From: Saturnia japonica
Lineage: Eukaryota; Arthropoda; Insecta; Lepidoptera; Saturniidae
Direction of reading: 5' to 3'
Assembly (NCBI GenBank): GCA_033032175.1
Contig: CM065322.1
Location: 12,958,001-13,022,000 of the forward strand
DNA: 64,000 nt
The translations under genes and the position numbers were made by a program. Each line of letters starts with the position of its first letter. Position 1 is the first letter of the stretch. The notes under the pieces were generated by a model that was not told the DNA's origin, did not search any database, and was given only the letters and a program-made list of their open reading frames with translations. Below are positions 12,571-48,618 of this stretch, piece by piece.

Positions 12571-12705
12571 AAAAATTGATGGGTGTAAATATTAAACATG
12601 GCTGTTGGAAGGCGTCAATGATGCTGAGGTATCAGATGCACGATACGATACGATACGTCGAATCCTCTTAAATCAGGCAATTCAAGGCAGGTTGGCGGGG
12701 AAGTT

Positions 12706-13446
12706 ATGATTTTGGTGCGCCGTGAATTAAGCGCACATCGTGTCTATCCACTATGCAGTGACGACCCTGGTACTTGTGAGTTTTTACACCTAAAAATTGA
12801 AGCCCGTGCTCTACGGAGCGAATGTAATCTTCACATTATCTGCGTTTACTTGCCAGGGACAGGGTCATCTAGAGACAGTCTTTTATCATCGCTCAACTTT
12901 TATTTACAAAGTTGTAGTATCACAGGTATCCGTGATGATAATATTTTAATCTTAGGTGACTTTAATCTACCCAATATCACTTGGATTTTCGATGATCCCG
13001 GTCGTTTAACTCATTCTTCCGGTAGTCTTAGTGACTGTCAAAAAGAATTTGTTGACCTACTATCGGAATGGGGTTTGAGTCAATACAATACAATTAAAAA
13101 TGATAATAATCGATTTTTAGATTTGGTGTTTGGCAATACTCATGCAGTTGTAACCAGATCACTGTCCCCAATAGTAAAGGAAGATCTACCTCATCATCCA
13201 GCTTTAGAAATTCAATTTCCATATATAAATCTTAATGTACTAAAATATCCGCAGCATTTTGTTTATAAATTCAGACAAGCCGACTACCACAACATAAATT
13301 CGAACTTGAGCGCTTATAACTGGGATTGTGATTTGGGTAAGGAATCCATTGATAACGCTCTTAATGTTTTCTACGAAAGAATAAAATTAGCTATTGATAA
13401 ATACGTGCCCCGCTATCTTAGGACCAGTAAAAATATACCGATATAG
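12706..13446 (+). pseudogene. LINE endonuclease domain (truncated)
   Basis: Open frame of 246 codons, open upstream to about 12670 (NSRQVGGEV before the ATG), so the ATG is not the true start. Visible endonuclease motifs: VYLP at residues 47-50 and ILGDFNLPNITW at 82-93, the GDFN block of exonuclease-endonuclease-phosphatase enzymes. DLVFGNT follows further on. The catalytic S-D-H block expected near residue 165 reads DLPHHPAL, so the conserved aspartate is replaced. In the life cycle this domain nicks target DNA to prime reverse transcription. It ends at TAG 13444. The same frame reopens and continues about 55 codons into the linker before the RT. Confidence 0.85.
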
Positions 13447-13603
13447 TACTCACGGCCACTTATGCATATTATTAAGGAAAAATATAAATACCACCAAAGA
13501 TGGAAAAAGTTTGGATTACTTTCAGATTATCACAGTTTCTCACTCCTAAGATCACGGTTTAAAAAAATGCAAAATCTTTGCTGGAAAAATTATATTAAGA
13601 AAT

Positions 13604-15087
13604 GTGAACTCTCAATCCAAAGTAGGAATATGTAGGAACTATGTTAAAAATTTAAAAAAGTCGCAACCATTTCCTGCACATGTAAGTTATGGGACCTTAT
13701 CCGCAAATGATGGTGAGGACACGTGTAATCTATTCTTAGACTTTTTTCAATCTGTTTACACAAGCAATAATACCCAACGCTCTGTGAATCACTCTTCCAA
13801 AACTAATTATTTGAGCAGAATGGGCTCTTTAAATTTATCTCCAAGCTTAGTACACAAATACTTAAAGTTAACTGACCCTAATAAAGGTGCAGGAACCGAC
13901 AACATCCCTTCTTTTTTCGTTAGGCAATGTAGTGAAGCCTTGGGCGTTCCTCTTACTATACTATTTAACAAATCACTAACATTGAGTTATTTTCCAAGTA
14001 AGTGGAAAGAGGCCTTTATAACACCAATCTATAAATCCGGGTCTAGATCAAATGTAGAAAATTACCGTCCGATTTCATTACTCTCAGTGTTCAGTAAATT
14101 ATTTGAATTATTAGTTCACGACCAGATATACAATTTTTTAGCTACGTCTATCCCCGCGACTCAACATGGATTTATGAAAAAAGATCGACTGAAACTAATT
14201 TAGCTGTGTACTCAGGTTATATAGCGTCTGGAATGGACCAGGGTTACCAGGTTGATGCCGTATACACTGACTATTCCAAATGTTTCGACAGAATTAATCA
14301 CGATATTTTGGTGCAAAAGCTTTCTAGTGTCGGTATACATGGTGATTTATTGAGATGGTTCGCTTCTTATGTTTCTAATAGACATCAAGCAGTGCGCGTA
14401 GGTGTACACATTTCACGCTTTGAAAAAATTCCATCCGGTATCCCGCAGGGATCACACCTCGGTCCGTTACTGTTTAATGTGTATGTCTCTGATATATCTT
14501 CCTGTTTTAAACATGCTGAATGCCTTATGTATGCGGACGATACTAAAATTTTCAAGGTTATTCGTAGTATTAATGACTGCCTTCTCCTTCAGCAGGATCT
14601 GGATCGACTCTGTGACTATTGTCAAATAAACAAACTGGATCTTAATATAAAGAAATGTAATTCTATAACTTTCACACGTAAACTTCGTCAAATTAATTAC
14701 AGTTATTCTTTAAATCACTTGCCAATCCAAAGTGTTAACTGTGTGAAAGATCTGGGGATTATGATGGACTCGAAGTTACTGTACAATCTTCATTACGACT
14801 TTATTCATCAAAAAGCCATCAAAATGTTAGGATTTATATTTAGAGTCACAAAGCCATTCAGCAAAATTCTACCACTTAAAATTCTTTATTTTTCTTATGT
14901 GAGAAGCTGCTTGGAATATGCGTCATCAATATGGTCACCAGCTTTCATTACACATAATAACAGGTTGGAAAATATTCAAAATAAGTTTTTAAAATTTCTT
15001 AGTTTCAAAGGTAAGAACCATCCCATGGAGTACAATAATAACTTAAAGCACTATAACATTTTGTCACTAAAAACCGTCGAATCATAA
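13604..15087 (+). pseudogene. LINE reverse transcriptase, frameshifted
   Basis: Two frames that belong to one protein. 13604-14203 gives NYVKNLKKSQPFPAHVSYGT, then DPNKGAGTDNIPSFFVRQCS, FPSKWKEAFITPIYKSGSR and NYRPISLLSVFSKLFE (RT blocks 0-2). 14206-15087 gives YTDYSKCFDRINHDIL (block A with catalytic aspartate), SGIPQGSHLGPLLFNVYVSD (block B), LMYADDTKIF (catalytic YADD, about 14530) and LGIMMDSKL. The two are separated by a one-base loss in an A-run near 14180. A further shift joins the endonuclease frame near 13600. The YADD box is intact but the gene cannot give a continuous product. Confidence 0.9.
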
Positions 15088-35421: not shown

Positions 35422-35621
35422 TAGCGTAATTATTTCCCACTATCTGAAGTAGCATATCTTCGTAAGACATCTGGGCTTGCATTTCCCAGCCGAACAGTTC
35501 TATCCCGTAACTAATCATATAATTGTGGATGGTGGCCGCGAGGAGGTAGCCACCATCGCCACCAAGTCGATCGTTATAAGCCGGTGTGTCGTATAAAATA
35601 ACTGCACGGCCCCAGTTATAT
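35422..35621 (-). CDS. Exon C: alternative exon of the receptor guanylyl cyclase-like gene
   Basis: Third recognisable exon, 200 nt. The acceptor is ttaccaacag before 35621 and the donor is GTGAGT from 35421. The first base A completes the CA left by exon A (Gln), and the peptide runs YNWGRAVILYDTPAY, LGGDGGYLLAATIHNYMI, then GIELFGWEMQAQ, MSYEDMLLQIVGNNY. It lines up with exon B from the start (Y-x-W-x-x-x-x-x-L/I) to the end (YLGYKYT against IVGNNYA) with a two-codon length difference. Unlike B it has no cysteine and no NxS/T sequon. Joined directly after B it would be read out of frame and meet TGA after about 35 codons, so it must replace B rather than follow it. Reading on past the donor stays open only for about a dozen codons of non-family sequence. 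The next downstream exon was not found. Confidence 0.8.
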
Positions 35622-36165
35622 CTGTTGGTAATAATAAATTCGGGTTACGTCATCTATTGTCGATAAGCGTAACTAATTGTAAAAGGGTTTCAAATCTGAC
35701 GCACCTCATAATATAACCATCGTATGTAAAAATTACACAAGATATTGTATTCCTAATTCAAATAATTAATGAATGCAAAAAAGATTTCTGTTTTAAAATT
35801 AAAACGAATTTTTATTGAGTACATAATTAATTAAAAGAAATCGGTATGTGACGTCAAAATGCTTATTATGACTTTATTTAGAAGAGAGTAATTTTTTGTA
35901 AGAATAATTTAAGTTAGTATGAATCTTAATTTGTTATTGTAATCTTAAATATTAACATTTCACTTTTAAAGCGAATGGGTGTGAATTAAAAATTACTTAC
36001 GTTTGGACTTATGTTTGTAAAGAGAAAGTAACTATTTATTGAAAATAGCTTAGTTGAAAATGTGTTTACTGCCATCTAGTGGTGAGTAGAATCATCAATT
36101 TTAAAAATATCTTACCATTAAAACAATCTTAGTCGTTTATAATAGTAATGTAAAATAAAGCTTAC
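35622..36165 (-). other. Short intron between alternative exons B and C
   Basis: 544 bp, AT-rich, with no open frame. It holds GCCATCTAGT (plus strand 36071-36080), the exact reverse complement of ACTAGATGGC at 36371-36380, which spans the acceptor of exon B. In the transcript these two 10-nt stretches could pair and loop out exon B (see findings). Another short motif of the same kind (GTCATCTATTG) is at about 35650. Confidence 0.6.
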
Positions 36166-36371
36166 TTGTGTATTTATAGCCGAGGTAAAATTTCAAATTC
36201 TCCGTATAGTTGAGCCCAGCGTCCGATGTGGTGTCCCACGGCGTGTAAATAATGTCGGCATCTTTAAGGAAGTTGGCGAACGATTTCATCATGAGATGGC
36301 AGGTCGACTTGCCGGCAACGTGAACTTGCGCCTCGGGTTCATTGATGAGTAGTAGTTGCCGCCATCCGTAA
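36166..36371 (-). CDS. Exon B: alternative exon of the receptor guanylyl cyclase-like gene
   Basis: Second recognisable exon, 206 nt. The acceptor is tctacgccatctag before 36371 and the donor is GTAAGC from 36165. The first base T completes the CA left by exon A (His), giving the family-typical passage LFR-H-YGWRQLLLINEP. It continues with AQVHVAG, STCHLMMKSF (one cysteine), ADIIYTPWD and LNYTENLKFYLG, which contains an N-glycosylation sequon NYT. The exon ends with one base of a codon. The segment corresponds to the start of the second lobe of the ANF-receptor fold (W...LL..EP...VAG..TCHLMMKS). It lies 12,063 bp from exon A and 544 bp from exon C. Same entry and exit phase plus matching layout mark it as an alternative to exon C. 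Not a retrocopy: splice sites are intact on both sides. Confidence 0.85.
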
Positions 36372-37154
36372 CTAGATGGCGTAGAAAAGAAGCGTGTTAA
36401 GAAAACCACACAGTGCAAAAATAAAACAAACTTACAGAACGGACGTATTGCAGTTGTCTATAAATTAATAACTTAAGATTAAAGTTATATCTTGTAACTT
36501 AATAACAAATAATTATCTAATAATAGTTCTTAAAGTTTTAATAGCCTTCACAGATCACGTTAATCTTCCTTAAAGAAAAACACGGTTATGTAAGAAAACA
36601 AGAATCAGGGTTGTTATTTAATTAAATTTCAATTGTGAATACCGTTTTGGCACTCAATGGTATTAGGCGTACTAAAGTCAGTTCGTGACAATGATGTAGC
36701 CAGGACTTTATTTAAGGAAGGGGGGCAGAGAGGCAAGGAAAAAACTAATAATATTCATACGTTGTTACAGCATTGCCTTCTATATAAATATTTGAACTAC
36801 ATCGACAATGTCTTTAAGTTGTTCGTAAAAAATAATAATACATATTTTTCCGACCAGAGTTTTGGAAGTATAATAAACATACAAACAGTAAACATTAAGT
36901 ATTTGCGTTGCATGCGAGTCAAGTAGTTCAGTTCCCAGCTTACCCCATTCGTACTAGAGATGGTGCAAGCTGCCCACCTTTCCAATACCTGGTTACGTCC
37001 TTGACTCATGCAGCCCACCTACGTAGTCAATTATACTTCTTCTATACTACGTCCATTGTCTATGATGTTGTGATATGGGATATGATGGGTCAGTTAGTAA
37101 CGTATACGGATTCCGCGTCCATCGCTGCAATGAGCATGAACTTTCGGTGAAGAA

Positions 37155-37330
37155 AAAAATCGTGATGGAACCATAGCATGGTGGTAGGGCTTTTTCTTAT
37201 ATCGGCCTGGCTAACTACCACCTTCAAGTTAAAACCCGTCGCCAAACACCAATAGGTGTGTTCCGGCAGCTGTAATTGAGAAACAGTCTTTCCATTAGGC
37301 TTAGCGTGCTACCATCTTGGGCCATACAAC
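37155..37330 (+). repeat. Interspersed repeat, family II copy 3
   Basis: ACCATAGCATGGTGGTAGGG, GTCGCCAAACACCAATAGGT, GTTCCGGCAGCTGTAATTGA and CTTAGCGTGCTACCATCTTG. The best-preserved copy. Confidence 0.6.
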
Positions 37331-37419
37331 CACAAAGCTAAACCCTGATGCCTAAAAAGAGATGCCGGCCTGCAAACCCCTCAGTAACTAGATATACAAT
37401 GGTTGATGACAAAACCATC

Positions 37420-37670
37420 ACGCATGTATTCCCCGAAGGGTTAGGCAGAGGTGTACATTTGTACACCCACAGTTCGCCGAGTATATTTTTAGGTCCCATG
37501 TAGTAGGGGGCGAGCCTATTGCCATTAATCGGGCACGAAACCAAACGCCGAGCTGCTACTGAGAATTTCATAGGAAAAACCCAATAACACTTTGCTCGAC
37601 CTGGGATTCGAACCCAGGACCTCGACCATAGCAGTCGCGCTTACGACCACTAGGCTAACGAGGCATTTAA
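37420..37670 (-). mobile_element. tRNA-derived SINE, copy 2 (best preserved)
   Basis: The minus strand begins with a tRNA-like head: TGCCTCGTTAGCCTAGTGGT (A box TAGCCTAGTGG), CGTAAGCGCGACTGC, then GGTCCTGGGTTCGAATCCCA (B box GGTTCGAATCC). The family body follows: AAATTCTCAGTAGCAGCTCG, TTAATGGCAATAGGCTCGCC, ACATGGGACCTAAAAATATA-like, GTACACCTCTGCCTAACCC, CGGGGAATACATGCGTGATG. Internal RNA polymerase III promoter boxes are intact. This is an element, not a functional tRNA gene, as no acceptor stem partner follows. Confidence 0.85.
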
Positions 37671-37754
37671 AACGGTTAAAACGCGCTAAACCAAATCAGA
37701 CTTATTGTGATAAGTTAATCACTATGTCACACACTACCCTTTCACCTCGATTGA

Positions 37755-38250
37755 TTATCTATACTAATATAATATAGCGGAAAAGCTTTTTTGTTTGTTT
37801 AAACACGCTAATATCTGGAACTACCAGTCGGATTCGAAAAATTCTTTTTTTATATGATAGCCAGACTCACGAGGAATAATATATAGGCTATATAACATTA
37901 AGCTACAGATCCCAGCTAGCCTTAAATATTGATTTTTGTTACGTAAGTCGGAAGTCGAAACTCTCGCGAACTGCTTTAGCTGCGTGCAATGGCTTAATGA
38001 TTAATGATACGTTCTACATCTAAATAATTCAGCGATATAATATATCTATCTCTTGTAAATAAGTCACAATAAGGTTTTTAAAAAAAAATTAAAAATTAAT
38101 TTATGAGCATTATTTTTAAGCGTGGCATATTAATCCTTCCGAACATAAGGTATTTTATCACAAATACAATTTAATGAAAATAAACTTCGTCTTTTACAGC
38201 ATGATATTTGAACGCATAGTGTATGCCAGACCTCACAATTGGCATGTCCT
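37755..38250 (+). mobile_element. Helitron-like repeat, family H1
   Basis: Head TCTATACTAATATAATATAG then CGGAAAAGCTTTTTTGTTTG, ACTACCAGTCGGATTCGAAA, AAGTCGGAAGTCGAAACTC, GAGCATTATTTTTAAGCGTG. The tail is lost or decayed. Confidence 0.6.
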
Positions 38251-38814
38251 ACCACCCAACAAATATACTTAAAATCATTGATTAATTATTGGTTGAAGAT
38301 GGCGTGGCGTTATCAACAATACGGGAACCAATAATTAATTAATGCAAATAAATATAATATAAAAAATGTTGTGAAATTTTTCTTCATAAAAAAAAGTTGT
38401 AGGAGCTAAATCGAATAGTTGGCGCTGAGAGTTTATACAGATTTGCTTTGATAGAGAATACGTGGATTTGCTTTGATAGAGAATACGTGATAGATAAACA
38501 TCTTCTTATTTAGGCATGAGGATTAACAAAGATATAGAATTTTATTTATTATCAAATAAATCGTAATTATTTATATCAATTAAAAAGTTTAGTCATAATA
38601 GGTATGTTTAACCATAATCAGTACGAGAGTGATAAAGCAGTTTTGCACTGTTTTGAAGTATGTTGTTGATGCCACATTCCGGAACACATTTCGGAAATCT
38701 CTTTAGAGATTTTTCTCTTCTCGGTACAACCCTACGGTATAAAACATCCACTACCTACGATACTTTAACCGTTTACCATCATATGGTTGTTTTTCACTAT
38801 AGTTGTATAAGAGT

Positions 38815-39130
38815 AGAGGAGGTGGAGGGCAATCGAAATCATGGCGGACCTCTCCTCCAGTACAAGGGTGTCCAAAAGCGACACATTAAGAGATGCAACA
38901 TAGAGCCCTCTCATTGGGATCGTTTGGCAGCACACCGGTCAGAATGGCGCAGGATGGTAAACAGCCATGTACGCGAGTTCGAGGTTCAGCGTAAAGCTGA
39001 CCTTGATAACAAACGCGACCGGTTAAATGCTCGTCCAACTGCTGCCATAACATATCATTATGAGAACGGCGTACTCACGTGCCCTCAGTGCGCACGGAGT
39101 TTCGCCGCGAAGATAGGCTGTATCGTTTAA
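38815..39130 (+). pseudogene. LINE ORF C-terminus (RTE-like)
   Basis: Frame reads GNRNHGGPLLQYKGVQKRHI, KRCNIEPSHWDRLAAHRSEW, RRMVNSHVREFEVQRKADLD, then VLTCPQCARSFAAKIG and a stop after CIV at 39130. The G.RNHG.P.LRYKD..KR.....I....WE..A.DRS.WR pattern and a terminal CP.C zinc-like motif are typical of the 3' end of insect LINE polyproteins annotated as endonuclease/reverse transcriptase. The expected final H..H pair after KIG is missing (CIV stop instead). Upstream sequence in the same open frame (from 38660) is unrelated. Confidence 0.7.
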
Positions 39131-39134
39131 AGTT

Positions 39135-39870
39135 AAGTTGGTAATATAATATGTATATGAACTACAACAATATACTATTTTACATATGGTGGCTGTGTGC
39201 CAATTTGCTAATCACCTGTCACGAATTATTTCCATACTCAGGATATCTGATAAGGGTAAAAGCTCGGCTCTTACCGTTGATACGTTTTTATTATTTTGAG
39301 TGCAAGTACTCTACTGGTCCAAATCCGATACGAGGGGTTCCCACTTCTATATTTAGATACTCAACGACTATGCTTTATCTAACAAAATTCTATACAGGAT
39401 TAGTGGTAGGGAAAATCCAGATTATCTGTTCACATTTTAGTCGTTATCAATGTTTAGTTTATTCCGGATGACTCGGATTAGATAATAAATATTAAGAATG
39501 ATGCAGAAATGTAACAAAAAAAAGTGCAATTCTCAATCATGATTTATTTTTATCTATAATCACTATAATCGAGATAATAACGTAAATGATGTTTTGTTCA
39601 AAACCTTAAATCTCCGAAAGTTATATTTCTTTTTCTTGATTTAGCAGTATAAAATCATTTGCCAGCATCAATGTGTTTAACTCTCTTCATAGTAATTTCA
39701 ATTATTCAAAGATGGCTCAACAAAATTATGGCTCCCTTGCTCTAGTAGTATCTAGGGAGTTTTTCTGACATCTCAAAATGCATATTTTCATTTTAAATTT
39801 ATAATCCACTTATATTCCAAATATAGTTTCCAACGAATAGCGCATTTAGTTATAAGGCAGGGGAAAAATC
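39135..39870. other. No recognisable genes
   Basis: AT-rich. The open frame 39151-39471 has no recognisable domain. Confidence 0.45.
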
Positions 39871-39876
39871 ATAATA

Positions 39877-40146
39877 TTACGCACCTTCGACAAGACAAGG
39901 GCTTCATTGAAACCTTCGGTGATACAAGGGCTCAATTGTTAAAAGTACATAAAATGAGTTACGTACGTCTAAGTTTTTTAAAAACATGCTTTTATCTGGA
40001 GGAACAAAGACGCTTCTAAACAGTGTAAGCTATATTTCACACAAAGAATAATTATTTGAGAGCAATATTATCAGAATAAATGTTTATCCTGAAAAACTAC
40101 AAAACGTGCATTTAATTAAGCCCTTGCCTTACTGAAGGTACGTAAG
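39877..40146. mobile_element. Short terminal-inverted-repeat element (MITE-like)
   Basis: About 270 bp. Left end TTACGCACCTTCGACAAG, ACAAGGGCTTCATTGAA. The right end, reversed, reads CTTACGTACCTTCAGTAAG, GCAAGGGCTTAATTAAA, so the arms agree at most of about 35 positions. Just inside the left arm lies a second degenerate copy, ACCTTCGGTGATACAAGGGC. No coding capacity. Non-autonomous DNA transposon, superfamily unknown. Confidence 0.65.
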
Positions 40147-40414
40147 AGGATATTTTAAGTAAGATAAAAAGGTTTTAAACCATTTTAGATTTGTTTCCTA
40201 AATTTTATGAAGCCTTATTTCTATATCAATATAATTTCGGCTTACATTTTAAATTTCTCAAATAAATTAATAAAATATAATTTATTGAATTATTTAAGAT
40301 ATGTTTATATATTTTGATTCCTAATTATTGTTTCATAAGTTTCCGGTTCCAATTAAACATCTGTTTATATGAATTTATATGCAAAGCCGATAATAACTCC
40401 ATATAATAGAACTG

Positions 40415-40632
40415 CCTCAATAGCCTTGTAGTCGTAACCGCGACTGCTATGCTCGAGCTCCTGGGTTCGATTCTCAGGTTGAACAGAGCGTTATTGGGTT
40501 TTTCTATGAAATTCTCAGTAGCAGTTCGATGTTTAGCTTTCTGCCCTATTACCAACCCTTATTATGTTGGAGTACATTAGTACACCTCTGTCTAACCCTT
40601 TGGGGATACAGGCGTGATAGTGGTATGTTTAA
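40415..40632 (+). mobile_element. tRNA-derived SINE, copy 3
   Basis: AATAGCCTTGTAGTCGTAAC (degenerate A box), CTCCTGGGTTCGATTCTCAG (B box), ATTGGGTTTTTCTATGAAAT, TTCTCAGTAGCAGTTCG, AGTACACCTCTGTCTAACCC, GGGGATACAGGCGTGATAG. The central part with the TAGGCTCGCC block is deleted. Confidence 0.8.
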
Positions 40633-41264
40633 TAGAAAGTTACGCGAATTAGTCCTACACGGTTATCGTTCGGTCCCAAATATCGCGAATGTTCGGGGTA
40701 TTCGAAGTTGACAGTGGCGTTTGCTTTTTGTTTTGATTTGCTATTATTACATTTATTACCATTTATTTTAACTTAAAACTTTTGTCGCAGAATAAAAAAA
40801 AGGGTAATTGTTAAAATCGAAATTAATTTCACTACCAAATCAAAATTGACTACAAGCGATGTTTAGATAATAAATTCCATAAATTCTTTTTATTGAATTT
40901 ATTCTTATTTTTTTAATATGAAATAATAAAACCTTTATACATTGTTAGAATTACAAATTAGGAACCTACCAATATTATGAGTAAAGTGAATACGAAATGA
41001 TCTCTTAATATATGATGTAAAATAAATTATATTTTCTTTGTATATATCTATACTAAGTGAATATTTAAGAGGACTATGTAAGTAAGAATATTATTAAAGT
41101 TTCTTTTGAAGCTTGTTGATTATGTAATATCAGTATCTGTAGCAAGATATACCTAAAATTGCTAAGCACAGTACAATTACAATTACAGTACAAAGGCTAT
41201 CTACCAATGGTCGCCTACTACGTACTGGCCTACAAATCTTTCGGCAGGTGGCTATACAAAGCAT

Positions 41265-41400
41265 ACAACACGTTTTGTATTTTATTCAATTTAGGCCCTA
41301 AGAAGACACTTATGAATGTCATCACACAACCTCCGGTTCGCAAGACATCCCAGTCATCGCGACAAGCCGGTAAGAGCCGACCGCGTTAATCAACATTTTT
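41265..41400 (-). mobile_element. LINE 3' UTR fragment, inverted (family L1a)
   Basis: The minus strand reads CTTACCGGCTTGTCGCGATG, ACTGGGATGTCTTGCGAACC, CATTCATAAGTGTCTTCTTA, GGGCCTAAATTGAATAAAA, matching the 3' UTR of 7978-8070. Confidence 0.7.
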
Positions 41401-41429
41401 TAATTAATTATTTTTCATGTGAAACATAC

Positions 41430-42800
41430 AATGCGGCGGGTTGGTTGGTTGGTTGGTCGTGCGATGGTCCACCGTTCGTCGTGTGGAGACCAAATAGTTT
41501 TTTTTTTAATATACAGACTAGATTATTTCATAGTTTCATAGATAGATTAAAAACTTTTTTTACACTCACTGGTTCCAAAACGCGACTAACCAAAAGCGGA
41601 TCAGTGCGACGGATTTATCACTATGTGTATGTGTGTGGTGGTGTACGTATGGTACGTGTATGGTGTATGGACACAAGTCCAACAATTATCTATAGGTCTT
41701 ACACGCGGTCAAACAACGAATATAAAAGCTTTATTGGAGTAGTTTATAAAATATATTTATTATCTATTATCTAGCATAAAGATAAACCTAGAATTGTCAC
41801 CGGTCGTTATTTTCGCTTTTCCATCAAAATAATAATAGCCTGACTAAATGTATTTCTGTTTATATGTTTTCGCCTATTAAAAAGACTTAGTATTCATTAA
41901 TTGCAGAGAAGCGTTAATATCTTTTTAAAGCGCGTGTTATGAAACATATCAAAGTACTCGTATTATAGCAACACAGCTCCTGTAGTAGGGATACAAGGAG
42001 AGAAATTAATTGTTTTTCGTGAGTTATGTACTCTTCTTTCCGATTGATTCCGAGAAAATTATTAGTAATATAGTATTTATATCTTTTACAAGTTTTTATA
42101 GACATTTATATTGAAATTAGAAAAGTTTTTGAAATACGTAAATCAAGAGTATTTCTGTCAGCTTTGATAGTTGTTAAAAGCAATAGACCATTCCTTTACT
42201 TATATAAATTTAGTAACAGCACTTCAAGGGGCCAAACGCAGGAACTAAAATTAGTGACTAGCTATATTTGAACAACATGAAAACTCATACAAAGGCTCTC
42301 ACTCTATAGAAAAAGCGGGAATATGAATCGCTTCCGCTCCGCTTATGATAACATATACTCAGACATATTCCAGTCGATACGACCTTCTTTACGTAACTAA
42401 TTATAGGCTTAGATTACTCTTGGGAAAGTCTGTAACACGGGTGTATTTTAAATAATAAATTGTGAAGCATGAAACATTATTCCTTCATACAAGATATAAA
42501 GTAAGTTTGATTATAAAAAATTTATAGAAAGGAATTTAAAAAACAATTAAAAAATCTTAGGATAATCCAATAGAGGCGCGATATGAATTGAGAGTAACTG
42601 TGCTGCCCCTCCAGCTTATGCTCTGCCCGCAGAAGAGCATGCCGCTGGCCACAAACAGCCATGGCCTGATTGGAGAACTGTGAACCGTTTTCGAACTCAT
42701 ATTTGTCGCTGTAATATTATTCTATACAATTAATATGGTTACGTGGAAACTATCAGACATATTTGAAAAATCCTTTCTGCATCGTATAACCTTTTTATTG
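41430..42800. other. Unassigned
   Basis: Contains a short GGTT microsatellite (41440-41456) and a small GC-rich patch at 42590-42700 with no recognised content. The rest is AT-rich. Confidence 0.4.
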
Positions 42801-42809
42801 ACGAGGATT

Positions 42810-43380
42810 TATAAGATATGCTACGCTGTGTCCCACGGTTTTACCCGTGTTCATTTTATCCGACAAACACCGCACCGCCAGCGCATCCGTGTAGCTTTCC
42901 GCAAGAACAAATTATTTTACCTTTCCATTATCTACTAAACTATGCTATAATAAAGGACAAAATTAAACTTCATACAATTCTCTTTATGATAAAATAACGT
43001 ATAATGGTAATGCAATGTCTAAAAATAAAACTCATAAATCAATTTTTAATCTTCAAAAAAAAAAGTAAAATAACTTATTTTGTCTTATGTATAATGGATA
43101 GGCTTATGCTATAACCGATTATTTTTTAGATATACTAAGGACCAATATTTTTGTTTAACATTGTATTTATGTATCATTAACCATTACGCCAACGCACGAG
43201 GATAAATACTTAACAAAAACCATTATTAGCACTAACTAAGAGTTTTAGTGTAATGTTCTGGTTTTCACAAGCAAAAAGAATTTTTCGAATCCGACCGGTA
43301 GTTCCAGAGATTAAACAAACAAAACAAAAAGCTTTTCCGCTTTTTATAGAAAAATATTAGTATAGATATAATTATACTTT
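42810..43380 (-). mobile_element. Helitron-like repeat, family H1 (complete, inverted)
   Basis: Plus strand begins with the reversed tail GCTGTGTCCCACGGTTTTAC then CCGTGTTCATTTTATCCGAC, AAACACCGCACCGCC, and ends with the reversed head CGAATCCGACCGGTAGTTCC, AGCTTTTCCGCTTTTTATAG, AATATTAGTATAGATA. About 570 bp and nearly full-length, so a useful reference copy of the family. Confidence 0.7.
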
Positions 43381-43726
43381 ATGACTTTATGGAGCAGAGC
43401 AATAAAAACCACAAACAGCAAAAAAGGGAAGTGACAACAATGTTAGGTTGCATGCGTGCGTTGAGAGGCGGAGCAGAAGAGAGTTGGTCAAATAAATTAA
43501 ACATTTCAAAATTAAATTTATATCCATTATACGATTTTATTTCGTTCTACATCCAAAATTGTTTGATTACCTATTTATGTATAAAAATACAGCTATTCTA
43601 GCCCCTTTCCTAACATTCCCTTTAAACCTCGACCTTTCAAAAATTTATTATTCGGACAGCATCCGCTCACCGGAAAATAGACATGTACTGAGATTGAAGG
43701 CTGGGTACCTATACAATTCTCTTTAA

Positions 43727-44000
43727 TCTATACCAATGTTATAAAGAGGGAAGATTTGATTTTTTGTTTGTAATGGATAAACTCAAAAACTACTGAACAA
43801 ATTTTAAAATTTCTTTCACCAATATAAAGCTACTGTATCAGGGAGTAACATAGGCTATATTATAATTTGAAAAATTTCTTTATTACTCATAAAAATGTCG
43901 ATAGTTTTACGCAAAGTATAAAAAATTGCCTACACGGGCGCGTTGACTATGTTTGTCGTATAAAATTAACACGGGTGAAACCGTGAGGCACAGCTAGTTT
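43727..44000 (+). mobile_element. Helitron-like repeat, family H1 (short form, complete)
   Basis: Head TCTATACCAATGTTATAAAG, AGGGAAGATTTGATTTTTTG; tail CACGGGCGCGTTGACTATG, ACACGGGTGAAACCGTGAGG, CACAGCTAGT. Both ends present, about 270 bp. Sister of 24826-25092. Confidence 0.7.
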
Positions 44001-44268
44001 TATCATAAAATTATATAAAGTTTACATAATCTCGCAATAAGTGATAGTTGTGTCAGAACGTATCGCGACTACCATGCATAGAGTGATAAACCTGTAATAA
44101 TGGCTCCCTTTTGGTTTTTCAGACAATATATATCCAGCTACTGAGAGACCTGCAGGAGCGGCGTTGCTGGGACGACCACCAATGGATTGGATGGATTGTA
44201 TTTGGATTGTAGAGTACTTACCTTCAAGTACCTCAGTGCCGTCATTTAACCGTGATATCATTAAAAAA

Positions 44269-44544
44269 ACTTGGCCGTCACGGGACGCCCGGCAGATGTG
44301 AAACATCTTAGGAAGTATTAAAAACTTGGTCGTCAAGGCACGCACGGCAGATGTGAAACAACTTAGGGAATATAAAACACTTGGCCATCACGGGACGCCC
44401 GGCAAATGTGAAAAATCTTAGAGAATATTCAAAAACTTGGCCGTCACGGGACTTCCGGCAGATGTGAAAAATATTAGGGAATATAAAAAAACTTGGCCGT
44501 TACGGGTCGCCCGGCAGATGTGAAACATCTTAAGGAATATCAAT
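44269..44544 (+). repeat. Minisatellite of five ~55-bp units
   Basis: Five head-to-tail units of 55-56 bp, each starting ACTTGGCCGTCACGGGACGC (with variants) and containing CGGCAGATGTGAAACATCTT. The first starts at 44269, then about 44324, 44379, 44435 and 44491. A single related unit is at 62001-62055. Units differ from each other at several positions, so the array is not fresh. Confidence 0.9.
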
Positions 44545-44802
44545 AAAAAAAGCACCGGGTGATCCCGAAACACGAGAAACAAACAGAATGACTTTCTTTT
44601 AGTTAGAAAGTCACTGTGAAGATGTTGAGTTTATTACCATATATATGGTGGTATTCCCTACAAACCACTTTTTATCTATACATGTTTAACATGAAACTTT
44701 GAAATGATCTGGTATGTCTATTGAAAACAACGAACACGGTTCCATATCGCCAACGTTGGGGCCAACACCCGGTCTGACCCGCCGCAATAGATGTTTCACA
44801 TC
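44269..44802 (+). mobile_element. Minisatellite-bearing element, copy 1
   Basis: The array is followed by CACCGGGTGATCCCGAAACA, AAGTCACTGTGAAGATGTT, CCAACGTTGGGGCCAACACC, CGGTCTGACCCGCCGCAATA and ends in GATGTTTCACATC (44790-44802), the exact reverse complement of GATGTGAAACATC at 44295-44307 in the first unit. The same left, middle and right blocks occur at 61998-62349. This suggests a non-autonomous element with inverted ends and an expandable internal array. Class unknown. Confidence 0.6.
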
Positions 44803-44879
44803 ATAATATGTCCAAAATTTTCATAGAGAGAGATCAATTTTGTACTAACACTAATTCTTGTGCTAGGGCTAATTAACAG

Positions 44880-46980
44880 AGAAAATGGTATACGGAGGAT
44901 CAGTTAGAAATAGCGCAGAAAAACAAAGACTTCATGACTCAGCGAAATATTAACGGAGAAAAAGTCCTGTTGGCATCATTTGCTTGGTTATCTTGAAAGG
45001 ATTAAAAAGAAACCATTCATTCGCCATTGTGCTAGAATTTTACTATGCTTACCATCAGTGACAGCACCGTCAATTTGCCGTGCTACTATAAAAAAAAAGA
45101 TTCGTGTAGATCAGAAAGCGTTGACGAAATTTCAATTCGGAGGCTCGCTGAACTCTTTCTGGTTCGCTGAACCAGCTGAATATGTATGTATATTTTATTG
45201 GTATATGACGATAGTCAAACAAGTTTTTGCGAGATGATTCGGCTGAAGATAAAACCATGCAAAACCAAAGTGCAGATTCTAAAACAACATATCGGTATGT
45301 TGTCGGCGACTAGAAATAAATTTTCAACTTAAGGGTGATAGTAATATAGTTAAGCCTTTGAAAATGCCCTATCCATCACTATTATGAAGATATTAAACAA
45401 ATTCATCATACTTCATGTTTTCTTATAAGTTATTATATCTATTTGAAAGTTTTTGGCGAGATCTTAATATTCCATGTTGTAATTTTTAGTCGACCTACGT
45501 ATTTAACCTTATATTATGTAATATTAGTGGCGTTTTGCGTGATATAGTTTGTCAAAGTGAAATTATAAAAAATTACTAGAAGCATGAATTTTAATTTACT
45601 TCAAAAACTCCTTGGAATTTTTTTAACAAGAGAGCCATCACATTTTTAATGCGTTGCTTAAACTCTAAAAATTAGAATATTTTTATATCCACTTCATTTT
45701 GGTCATTGGGTATAAACAGAGTCGCCATTGAAGAAGAGACTTTATAACATTAACATTACCATACCTACTTAATTCAATTCGTGCAAATTGATCTGAAATT
45801 TCGTTGTTAATTAAAAATAAAAATGAATCGATTTGTAAAAGTGTCTCAACTTTTACTGAATGAAAGTATTGTACTGAAACTATATCAAAATATAACCCAT
45901 TTTCCCGTACTCGCCTATTTGTGTTCTAGCAGATGAACTTGAGAGTAAGGCTATGTTTCTGAGCTCAGGATGTTTTTACATCTAGCAATATTTAGTAATG
46001 CTGTTATGATCAAAATATTTCTAAGATAATAATAAAATCACCGCTTACTATAAAAGAAAATTCTAAAAAGCAAGGAGAATATGAACCGTAATAAATCTAA
46101 TCACGTCTCTGTGGGGCTATCAGACATGAACTTCCAATCAAATCAAATCAAATCTTCCGAATCCCATGACTATTCAGAATCTAAGTTGAAATTTATTACG
46201 TGGATAATACACATAAGTTACTTATTTCATCTTTACACCTAATAATATTTTAAAGAGGTAAGATAAAAACCTCATAATTATTATAACATTATAAATAAAT
46301 ATTTTGTTTTTACTCTTGCCCTTATTACCTTACTCTTTAGTCATTTATTACACTTAGAATAAAAGAAGAAAAGTCGTTTGCTGTGTTCCTCTATTGTTCC
46401 TTATAAATTATAAATGATCGGGTCGAAAAACGAATTACAATGGTTTTTTTTTAAAACGATGTTACAACTGTTAATTAATTCCAAGTGGCAGTGGCAAAGA
46501 AACTTGAATCAATTATTTACGATGGATTTAACGCCTTCGACAATCAAATATCCTTCAGTGAAAAATCCTTTTTAGAAATCATCCATTTTATATAAGGAAA
46601 TTTTTCTAGATCCCTCGTTTTAAGCTGTACTTCGTCCATCATTAACCCCTAAGAATTTTACTGAATAGAAGATATACACAATTAATTATTTATTATAGTA
46701 ATAAAATCCAATAATATAAAAAAAAAACCAAATTATTATTTTTGTCCGCTGTCTACCCTCAAGGGGAAGATGGCTTGATTGGTTGATGTAAATCTTAGAA
46801 ATAATTTCAATGTTGTTCCGATTTCCATTCCATCCCGAATTTTTGTATATAATTCTCCAATTTATTTGAAGAAAGGACCAATTTTCACGGGTATAAATTT
46901 TAATCTAACAGTAATTGAATGCCTTGTTTATTTTCGTTTATATTTCTGGCGCTTCTTCAAAATTGTTTTTTTATGAGTTA
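44880..46980. other. No recognisable genes
   Basis: AT-rich. The open frame 44980-45237 contains protein-like VTAPSICRATIKKKIRVDQK, ALTKFQFGGSLNSFWFAEPA but I cannot assign it. A family II scrap is at 45915-45960. Confidence 0.4.
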
Positions 46981-46984
46981 ATCT

Positions 46985-47365
46985 ATGTATTTTATGTTTT
47001 CTTTTTATGCTATAGAACAGCGAACAGGCAAACGATACGACCTACTTGAAGGTAAATGTTTACCATTGCCTATAGATAGCTGCAATATCAGAGGTTTAAA
47101 GCATATTATGTTGTCAACATTGGAGACCAAGTCCGGTGAAGCTGTAAAAGCCGCAGCGGCTTTAGAGCCCCTAAGGCTAACAATGAAGTCAGATCTAAAA
47201 AAAAACACATTGGAGACTGTATTGCAATCGCTTTTTGAAGAGCCTAATGTCATATGCATGGAGGAAACCTTGCTGGGTAACCCATCCACAATTCTAGTGT
47301 ACGCAAAAAGAAGTTCTTTTTTTTGTTGTCGCTTTTTTTTAATATTTGCAGTCGTGGTTCTGTAG
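46985..47365 (+). CDS. Unidentified open frame, possible exon or pseudogene
   Basis: Inside the receptor intron, opposite strand. The stretch EQRTGKRYDLLEGKCLPLPI, DSCNIRGLKHIMLSTLETKS, GEAVKAAAALEPLRLTMKSD, LKKNTLETVLQSLFEEPNVI, CMEETLLG reads like a soluble, helix-rich protein. It is bounded by an acceptor-like TTTTATGCTATAG before GAACAG (about 47016) and a donor-like G|GTAACC after CTTGCTGG (about 47276), and both boundaries would split a codon after its first base. I do not recognise the family. There is only a faint likeness in the ALEPLRLTMK block to the core domain of MutS homologues. The antisense frame is also open, which weakens the case. It could be an exon of a nested gene, a dead transposon ORF or chance. 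Confidence 0.35.
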   Translation: MYFMFSFYAIEQRTGKRYDLLEGKCLPLPIDSCNIRGLKHIMLSTLETKSGEAVKAAAALEPLRLTMKSDLKKNTLETVLQSLFEEPNVICMEETLLGNPSTILVYAKRSSFFCCRFFLIFAVVVL

Positions 47366-47369
47366 CTGA

Positions 47370-48428
47370 TGGTAAGAGTTGTTGAATCCAAAAAAAAACG
47401 GTGACTGACTAGAGATCAGCAATTCATAACCGGTTGCTGCTGTAATGTCGACAGCAAGGCCTCGACAGCTAGATGTATGACATTGGATTCCGAAACGCAA
47501 TAAACTAAAACAAAGGCACTGTGAAGGGTTTAACACCATGAGCGTGGTTGTTGCGATCCGGTTAGACATAATTGTCATACATTACCATCCAGCAAAAGTT
47601 AATGTTATAGATTTAGCTTTTGGCCACAATCTTCGATGCTAAGAGACAGTGTGGTCGAAAATGATACCATGCTAAGCCTAGATACAAGAATTGATTCAAA
47701 CTCTGCAACCGAATCAACCCTATGGGTGCTCGATAACAGATTTTGAATTTTTGCTGTCAGGGAAATCATTCAAATATCGTAAATCAATGCAAACTTTTAA
47801 AGCAAATTGTAAAATATTCGTATTACTTACCTGAAATTATTAACCATTAAATCGATGTTGCTTCAGCTCGAGTAGTGTACTTCAGTGTAATGTAATCAGT
47901 CTTATATAATATACTATACGTACCTTTAATACGATCAGCAAACAATTGAAGCGTTTAAAAATTGTAATATGTCAAAAAATAACTCTTTCAGGGGCTCAAA
48001 CACATAATACCACTTTTAACTTTTAGTAAATTAAAAATATCTGAACACAAATTTTCAAATATCGAATTACTGATCGAAGAGTGTTTATTTGTTGCAACGT
48101 ACTAAGTCTTCATCAAAATTAATTAGTCAATTTTTTTTTTAAATTTACAGTCGTTAAAAAATCTTCATTAGTTATGCCATCTGCTGGTAGCATTTGCAAT
48201 GAAGATACAGTCAAGAAATATGTAGGAGGCGTCATCTATTAACAATGTTCTCTGTCTGTATAAGTACATTTTTTAATGAGAATTCATAATTAATTTTCTA
48301 ATCATAAAAGTTTTATTGAAATACAAAATGAAAATAGTTATGTGATCAGATATTTTTTTAATCAAAAAAATAAATCAAACATAACTTACCGTCGGTCGTT
48401 GTATTTAGGTAAATAATTTTAAAAAAAT
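47370..48428. other. No recognisable genes
   Basis: Intron sequence just downstream of exon A. GCCATCTGCTGG (48178) and GTCATCTATTAAC (48232) are variants of the short motif noted at 36071. Nothing else seen. Confidence 0.45.
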
Positions 48429-48434
48429 ACTCAC

Positions 48435-48618
48435 TGTCGAAACAAATCGATGATGAAGTAAGCAAGGTCTTTGAAACCTAAGGGCCCCGTTCGGACCATC
48501 ATGTAGAACTCGTCTTGGCATGTCTGTTTTGGTTTAACAAAGTCGAAAGTGAAGCCTCCCGTGGTCACCAGAGGCGTTCCGGTGCCTCCGAGGAATCTTG
48601 TTATTCTCGCCACCGATG
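48435..48618 (-). CDS. Exon A: ligand-binding domain of a receptor guanylyl cyclase-like protein
   Basis: Internal exon of a type I ANF-receptor/PBP-fold extracellular domain, the ligand-binding part of single-pass receptor guanylyl cyclases, which make cGMP when ligand binds outside the cell. Seen: the minus strand reads a pyrimidine-rich acceptor ending ttctttcacag before 48618, 60 whole codons, and a donor GTGAGT at 48434-48429. The peptide includes GGFTFDFVKPK, a cysteine soon after, then DEFYMMVRTGPLGFKDLAYF and IIDLFR. The TFDF..K..C..DEFYM..RTGPL.FKDLA order is characteristic of this family. The exon begins with two bases of a codon (CA) and ends with two bases (CA), so it needs a partner starting with one base. 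Exons B and C both fit. Inference: the gene resembles insect Gyc76C/32E-type receptors, but which one is not resolved. Upstream exons are not seen in the remaining 15 kb. Confidence 0.82.

Follow-up and report, generated by a model that had tools for sequence, protein, structure and literature searches.

Candidate mutually exclusive exons in the ligand-binding domain of a receptor guanylyl cyclase gene from Saturnia japonica

Exons IIIb and IIIc of FGFR2 are mutually exclusive exons in the ligand-binding domain of a receptor. Among the membrane guanylyl cyclases of insects, many have, to our knowledge, no known ligand. A 2025 paper (PMC12393706) states that CG10738 was confirmed as the eclosion hormone receptor of Drosophila, and PMC12611267 identifies Gyc76C as a receptor for ITPa. 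If the gene described here does swap its pocket segments by splicing, a ligand can escape tests that use one isoform only, and specificity for a hormone has to be ascribed to isoforms and not to genes. The locus described here resembles FGFR2 in that one of two adjacent exons, B or C, fills the ligand-binding slot while the signalling part is unchanged.

The window, by which we mean the whole 64,000-nucleotide stretch of Saturnia japonica DNA that was analysed, carries on its minus strand part of a gene that, on the sequence evidence, is very probably an insect natriuretic-peptide-receptor-like membrane guanylyl cyclase with B and C as mutually exclusive exons. The parts of this gene in the window are as follows.

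Exon A, 48435..48618, minus strand: 184 nt; shared upstream exon of the ligand-binding lobe, with two bases left over (CA).
A-B intron, 36372..48434, minus strand: about 12 kb.
Exon B, 36166..36371, minus strand: 206 nt, 68 full codons; pocket segment of putatively ancestral type, conserved cysteine present.
B-C intron, 35622..36165, minus strand: 544 nt, 25% GC.
Exon C, 35422..35621, minus strand: 200 nt, 66 full codons; divergent alternative pocket segment, without the conserved cysteine.

The acceptors read ...cacag (A), ...tctag (B) and ...aacag (C), and the donors gtgagt, gtaagc and gtgagt respectively. Exon A translates as SVARITRFLGG...IIDLFR followed by CA, and B and C each require two incoming bases and pass on one. 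After CA, B supplies T, giving His and the segment YGWRQLLL...YKYT plus one base, and C supplies A, giving Gln and the segment YNWGRAVI...NNYA plus one base. The coding frame is open through both exons, whereas the other two same-strand frames hold 3 to 4 stops in each exon, and GC content is 48% in B and 46% in C against 25% in the intervening intron. All coordinates, lengths, splice sites and phases given for the three exons in the original prediction were reproduced from the window sequence, together with its spacing of 544 bp between B and C, its Y-x-W start (Y-G-W in B, Y-N-W in C) and Y-T/A end (YKYT in B, NNYA in C), and its statement that A ends with exactly the two bases that B and C need.

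Reading phase is 2 after A, 1 after either A+B or A+C, and 0 after A+B+C. The A-B and A-C joins are in frame with a downstream common exon, which relatives indicate is entered in phase 1, whereas A-B-C, and a join from A that skips both exons, break the frame. When C is read after B a stop is met 35 codons in (codon 164, B ending at codon 129), in line with the earlier figure of about 35 codons. As in a mutually exclusive pair, the two exons are adjacent, have intact splice sites and share entry and exit phase; use of both or of neither breaks the frame, which is a common, though not universal, feature of such pairs.

We propose that A is spliced to B or to C, either of which would then be joined to one common exon (its product starts with IVVVCANP in relatives). 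With A ending in phase 2 and the common exon entered in phase 1, both or neither would shift the frame; frame-shifted mRNAs would then carry an early stop and would probably be broken down, and this frame check together with decay would enforce a choice that a splicing regulator might set by tissue or stage. The choice would swap 66-68 residues in a stretch whose NPR-A counterpart bears most of the docking-derived hormone contacts, and the B and C receptors would probably differ in ligand or affinity, with kinase-like and cyclase output unchanged. One gene could in this way probably make receptors that sense different signals. Three other causes of exclusivity were considered and rejected: RNA pairing of the flanks of B and C, for which the best stems are no better than those of shuffled sequences (23, 21 and 9 of 25 shuffles reach the scores); steric exclusion by a too-short intron, which is ruled out by the 544 nt between B and C; and mixed spliceosome types, ruled out by ordinary GT-AG at all sites.

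The assignment of the gene draws on its relatives. Of 725 candidates, 19 proteins matched a combined A+B+C protein query at E up to 1; a further search for relatives returned 406 proteins at E up to 1e-5, of which the best 120 are listed. Among lepidopterans, the full-length relatives are receptor guanylyl cyclases that go by the name atrial natriuretic peptide receptor 1. This name is also the usual one among the named matches listed, the Bombyx protein being called a receptor type guanylyl cyclase; these named matches are lepidopteran, hymenopteran and blattodean, and there are no dipteran names among the best 120 of 406. By precomputed Pfam accessions, most listed relatives carry ANF-receptor, kinase-like and cyclase domains, which agrees with the prediction of a receptor guanylyl cyclase-like gene; it is in these proteins that the transmembrane, kinase-like and cyclase parts are seen. 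An ectodomain of the ANF-receptor type is likewise found in the relatives, while the window exons alone stay below the Pfam cut-off of 25.4 bits (A+C 15.8, A+B 12.8). In the PDB, natriuretic receptors are the sole matches to A+C, at E 0.29-0.38, and A+B has no match at E up to 1. Exon A shows 73-88% identity to its counterparts in the listed lepidopteran relatives (the listing of A and B identities comprises the proteins before P0020, minus eight without a pattern match).

With 121 relatives as tblastn queries against the window at E up to 0.01, exactly three places are matched, and these are A (84 of 121 queries), B (86) and C (3, namely P0003 from Heliothis, P0004 from Amyelois and P0019 from Galleria). 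It is these matches of relatives, more than the exons taken by themselves, that decide in favour of the three exons. The window therefore appears to include neither the first exons nor the common exon and cyclase part; barring very short undetected exons, the former would be over 15 kb upstream of A and the latter over 35 kb downstream of C. The same search found no further exon of the gene in the A-B intron, where very short exons could escape it. This intron does hold a tandem array at 44262-44548, with about five copies of a 56-base unit at 82% matches, for which a 111-base double unit is likewise called. Elsewhere in the window, on the plus strand, lies a decayed non-LTR retroelement (12628-15087) in three overlapping or adjacent frames, with endonuclease (PF14529, 32.3 bits) and reverse transcriptase (PF00078, 69.5 bits) matches and a middle piece that has no Pfam match.

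Both alternatives are annotated in Galleria mellonella. Isoforms X3 (P0013) and X4 (P0019), which come from automatic annotation, have 182 residues in common, then one differing segment, then another 1010 shared residues. The segment is of B type in X3 (RHYNWRQLLL...) and of C type in X4 (RQYGWTRTALLYDTPAY...), so that the predicted pair of receptor isoforms differing by this exon has an annotated counterpart. Directly before the aromatic-x-W motif the two proteins show a His/Gln change, as predicted from the window, where CA comes from A and the third base, T or A, from the exon that follows.

Exclusivity itself is a different matter, since two other models hold both types and annotation thus shows no strict exclusivity. 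In Amyelois, X2 (P0004) has B and C in one protein, joined as ...FYLAYR/FEWQR..., which a donor inside AGGT at that Arg codon would explain; in the window, no GT occurs close to the position at which the Amyelois model would exit B. The Heliothis virescens model P0003 has an N-terminus that is unrelated, followed by B, a piece of C and a second B, and is either a fault of assembly or prediction or a sign that B was duplicated once more. Mutual exclusivity fits the annotation of Galleria, where X3 has B and X4 has C in the same slot, but not that of Amyelois P0004.

The Amyelois fusion suggests another reading, in which B and C are used in tandem and in frame in some transcripts, yielding single-exon and double-exon receptors. 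Sites that would keep A+B+C open do exist in the window - three GT in B, at -143, -116 and -74, and one AG in C, at +20, that is, 20 nt inside the exon - but they lie far inside B or C, such that much of B or some of the start of C would be lost. A double segment is also without counterpart in the NPR alignments, each of which takes one segment. Tandem use strikes us as very unlikely, and the choice of one exon or the other is the reading we carry forward.

C-like segments or fragments number 4 of 121 with the window included and 3 without it; a complete C segment occurs in two full proteins, of 1259 and 1319 aa. The 90% clustering of sequences may hide further C forms, and, from the nature of that clustering, cluster representatives are probably biased to B because B is two residues longer. 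As a lone query against proteins of full-receptor length, exon C gave no match at E up to 0.01 among 12 candidates. This reflects the word filter and the divergence of C, and not absence, because two matches of the A+B+C query contain C-like segments.

B and C are only distantly similar. BLASTP aligns them with 8 of 49 residues identical (16%) at E 0.020 for a single comparison, overall identity is 16-20%, and among 5000 shuffles the global score was reached by 2 and the local score by 27. The C profile scores low against all other groups. To place the two types we also considered the longer proteins that the gene yields, which have a different N-terminal lobe and the same junction; we call these the long form, and those with the lobe containing A and B or C the short form. 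On average, window B shares 79% of its residues with the other lepidopteran B segments (15 in number), 35% with 52 non-lepidopteran segments of the short form and 18% with the three C segments, and the lepidopteran B profile scores a mean of 51 bits on non-lepidopteran short forms but 8 bits on C. The B type is retained in 52 of 52 non-lepidopteran short-form segments examined and is found in Hymenoptera and cockroach. Identities and profile scores together indicate that, for the short form, the B type is ancestral.

That C is a recent lepidopteran copy of B finds no support, since window C is about equally far from all groups (mean identity 0.19 to lepidopteran B, 0.23 to non-lepidopteran short-form, and 0.19 and 0.19 to long-form segments). 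In a segment tree of 49 of the 118 segments, thinned by hand, the C branch is long and its position open. The main segment alignment omits P0003 and P0004, and the group comparisons were made without the fragments P0020, P0021, P0050 and P0060 and the odd P0026, with the B and C parts of P0004 re-added. The original prediction had described interchangeable halves of the binding pocket. B and C do fill the same slot, but the pair is uneven, with B old and C a divergent extra, seen to date in Lepidoptera alone.

Divergent as it is, C is conserved along its length among the species that have it. Identity is 37/66 between window and Galleria, 42/66 between window and Amyelois and 42/66 between Galleria and Amyelois (56-64%), with the patches YDTPAY, GGxGG and MLLQ shared, and 32 of 49 residues match the Heliothis C fragment. 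The corresponding values for B are 52/68, 47/68 and 56/68, the Amyelois B being two residues short. These comparisons argue that C is maintained as coding sequence in at least four lepidopterans and evolves faster than B. They also bear on whether C might be a poison or decoy exon, one that is mostly joined behind B, shifts the frame and reduces the amount of receptor, or else a rarely used, dying duplicate. The stop met 35 codons into C in A+B+C would suit such a role, as would the far greater divergence of C than of B and its presence in few relatives, yet a poison exon needs a stop and not a full-length frame conserved at 56-64% identity over 66 residues in three species, and Galleria X4 has C instead of B with all else unchanged. 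We consider this very unlikely, and retain C as an alternative coding exon.

What the swapped segment contributes to the receptor can be judged from natriuretic peptide receptors. The segment aligns to NPR-A 144-208 by HMMER and a manual count, with residue names that agree with those in PMC9699598. Table 4 of that paper, a product of docking and dynamics and not of crystallography, gives at least 12 distinct hNPR-A residues that hydrogen-bond BNP or lebetin; of these 12, 10 fall in 144-208, the two outside being Glu119 and Lys132. The alignment to this hormone-contact stretch accords with the earlier placing of the exons in the ligand-binding domain. Protostome receptors probably lack the human pocket, according to PMC6878697.

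All 115 segments of B-type, short-form and long-form origin have a cysteine within segment residues 17-36 (TCHLMMK, TCQLMMK, PCFLTLS), and none of the three complete C segments does; the Amyelois C has one cysteine elsewhere, and the Heliothis C fragment contains none. In the HMMER alignment, with positions counted along it, the B cysteine falls on Cys164 in both NPR-A chains displayed, and NPR-A Cys213 is matched by the cysteine that the common exon supplies (IVVVCANP). These two NPR-A residues presumably form a disulfide. As C is without the cysteine while the common exon supplies its partner, the C form would keep one disulfide partner alone, and from this we would expect it to differ in lobe stability or dimer behaviour. 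An N-glycosylation sequon is likewise present in the segment in 16 of 16 lepidopteran B and in 0 of 3 C.

The cysteine counts could also be read as those of a C form that is a blank or dominant-negative partner, binding no hormone and dampening the B form in dimers: the cysteine is lost from all three complete C segments and from none of the 115 others, and the common exon still gives the other cysteine. The conserved patches YDTPAY, GGxGG and MLLQ would, however, be needless in a mere blank. We hold a dominant-negative role to be rather unlikely, and note that it has its splicing part in common with the explanation we prefer and differs in function only, such that confidences in the two overlap.

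In all five lepidopteran same-species pairs examined (Vanessa, Colias, Maniola, Pararge and Plodia), the short and long forms have nothing in common at their start past the first residue, whereas downstream of the junction they do not differ over the length of the shorter sequence. The long-form lobe, which in Vanessa reads KLGVLLPADPNQVFSLAKVLP...SLSTR, is the more NPR-like, its best NPR match being at 2.2e-28 against 9.6e-10 for the short lobe, and this likeness would fit an ANP-receptor clade. In 4 of 4 hymenopteran pairs the long model starts with a complete short lobe, to which the second half of the long lobe is added, and the first hymenopteran residue past the junction is I in the long form but V in the short, which is what a phase-1 junction common to both would give. 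Such chained models are seen in hymenopteran and termite sequences (P0057, P0077, P0062, P0068, P0056, P0053 and P0104; checked on the four same-species pairs, and by eye on the sequences) and reflect either an error of annotation or a receptor in which a half-lobe is doubled. In Achroia grisella, the long-form model X2 (P0026) skips the second half of the lobe and stays in frame (...FYISESA|VVVVCANP), possibly a receptor with a truncated pocket.

The B/C choice thus lies within an older one, between the long and the short lobe. We tentatively suggest, as a reading with less than even chances, that one gene might yield a three-way receptor set - long form, short form with B and short form with C - joined through a common phase-1 junction to one cyclase, where the C form, its conserved cysteine gone, would add a further receptor, to date a lepidopteran one, that has a new ligand or a redox- or dimer-dependent action. 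Identical elsewhere, the B and C forms amount to a natural swap experiment by which specificity could be located in a natriuretic-type pocket.

We found no report of mutually exclusive exons in a receptor guanylyl cyclase by title or abstract start, in a search whose coverage leaves out most subscription journals, and the four papers in which both of these terms occur are, to judge by their titles, about something else; the B and C isoforms are already present in automatic annotation, and the novelty of their description is provisional. A close parallel is that annotation, Galleria atrial natriuretic peptide receptor 1 X3/X4, which shares with the window the gene family, the slot and the His/Gln difference at the junction (52/68 residues identical in B, 37/66 in C). 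The Bombyx mori receptor type guanylyl cyclase X2 (P0009) is a B form, 81% identical to the window in B and 83% in A, and B is the sole Bombyx form among the proteins returned. By name alone this protein would be BmGC-1, a published cyclase whose expression, according to PMC1435932, tracks the circadian clock. The ectodomains of Galleria B and C forms align over nearly their whole length with vertebrate NPR-A/NPR-C (best 5.5e-52 and 3.7e-54). Set against known exclusive receptor exons, the lost cysteine of C is the unusual point. Compared with FGFR2, finally, this is an unrelated class of receptor, B and C are only 16-20% identical, and ligand switching at B/C is something that we infer.
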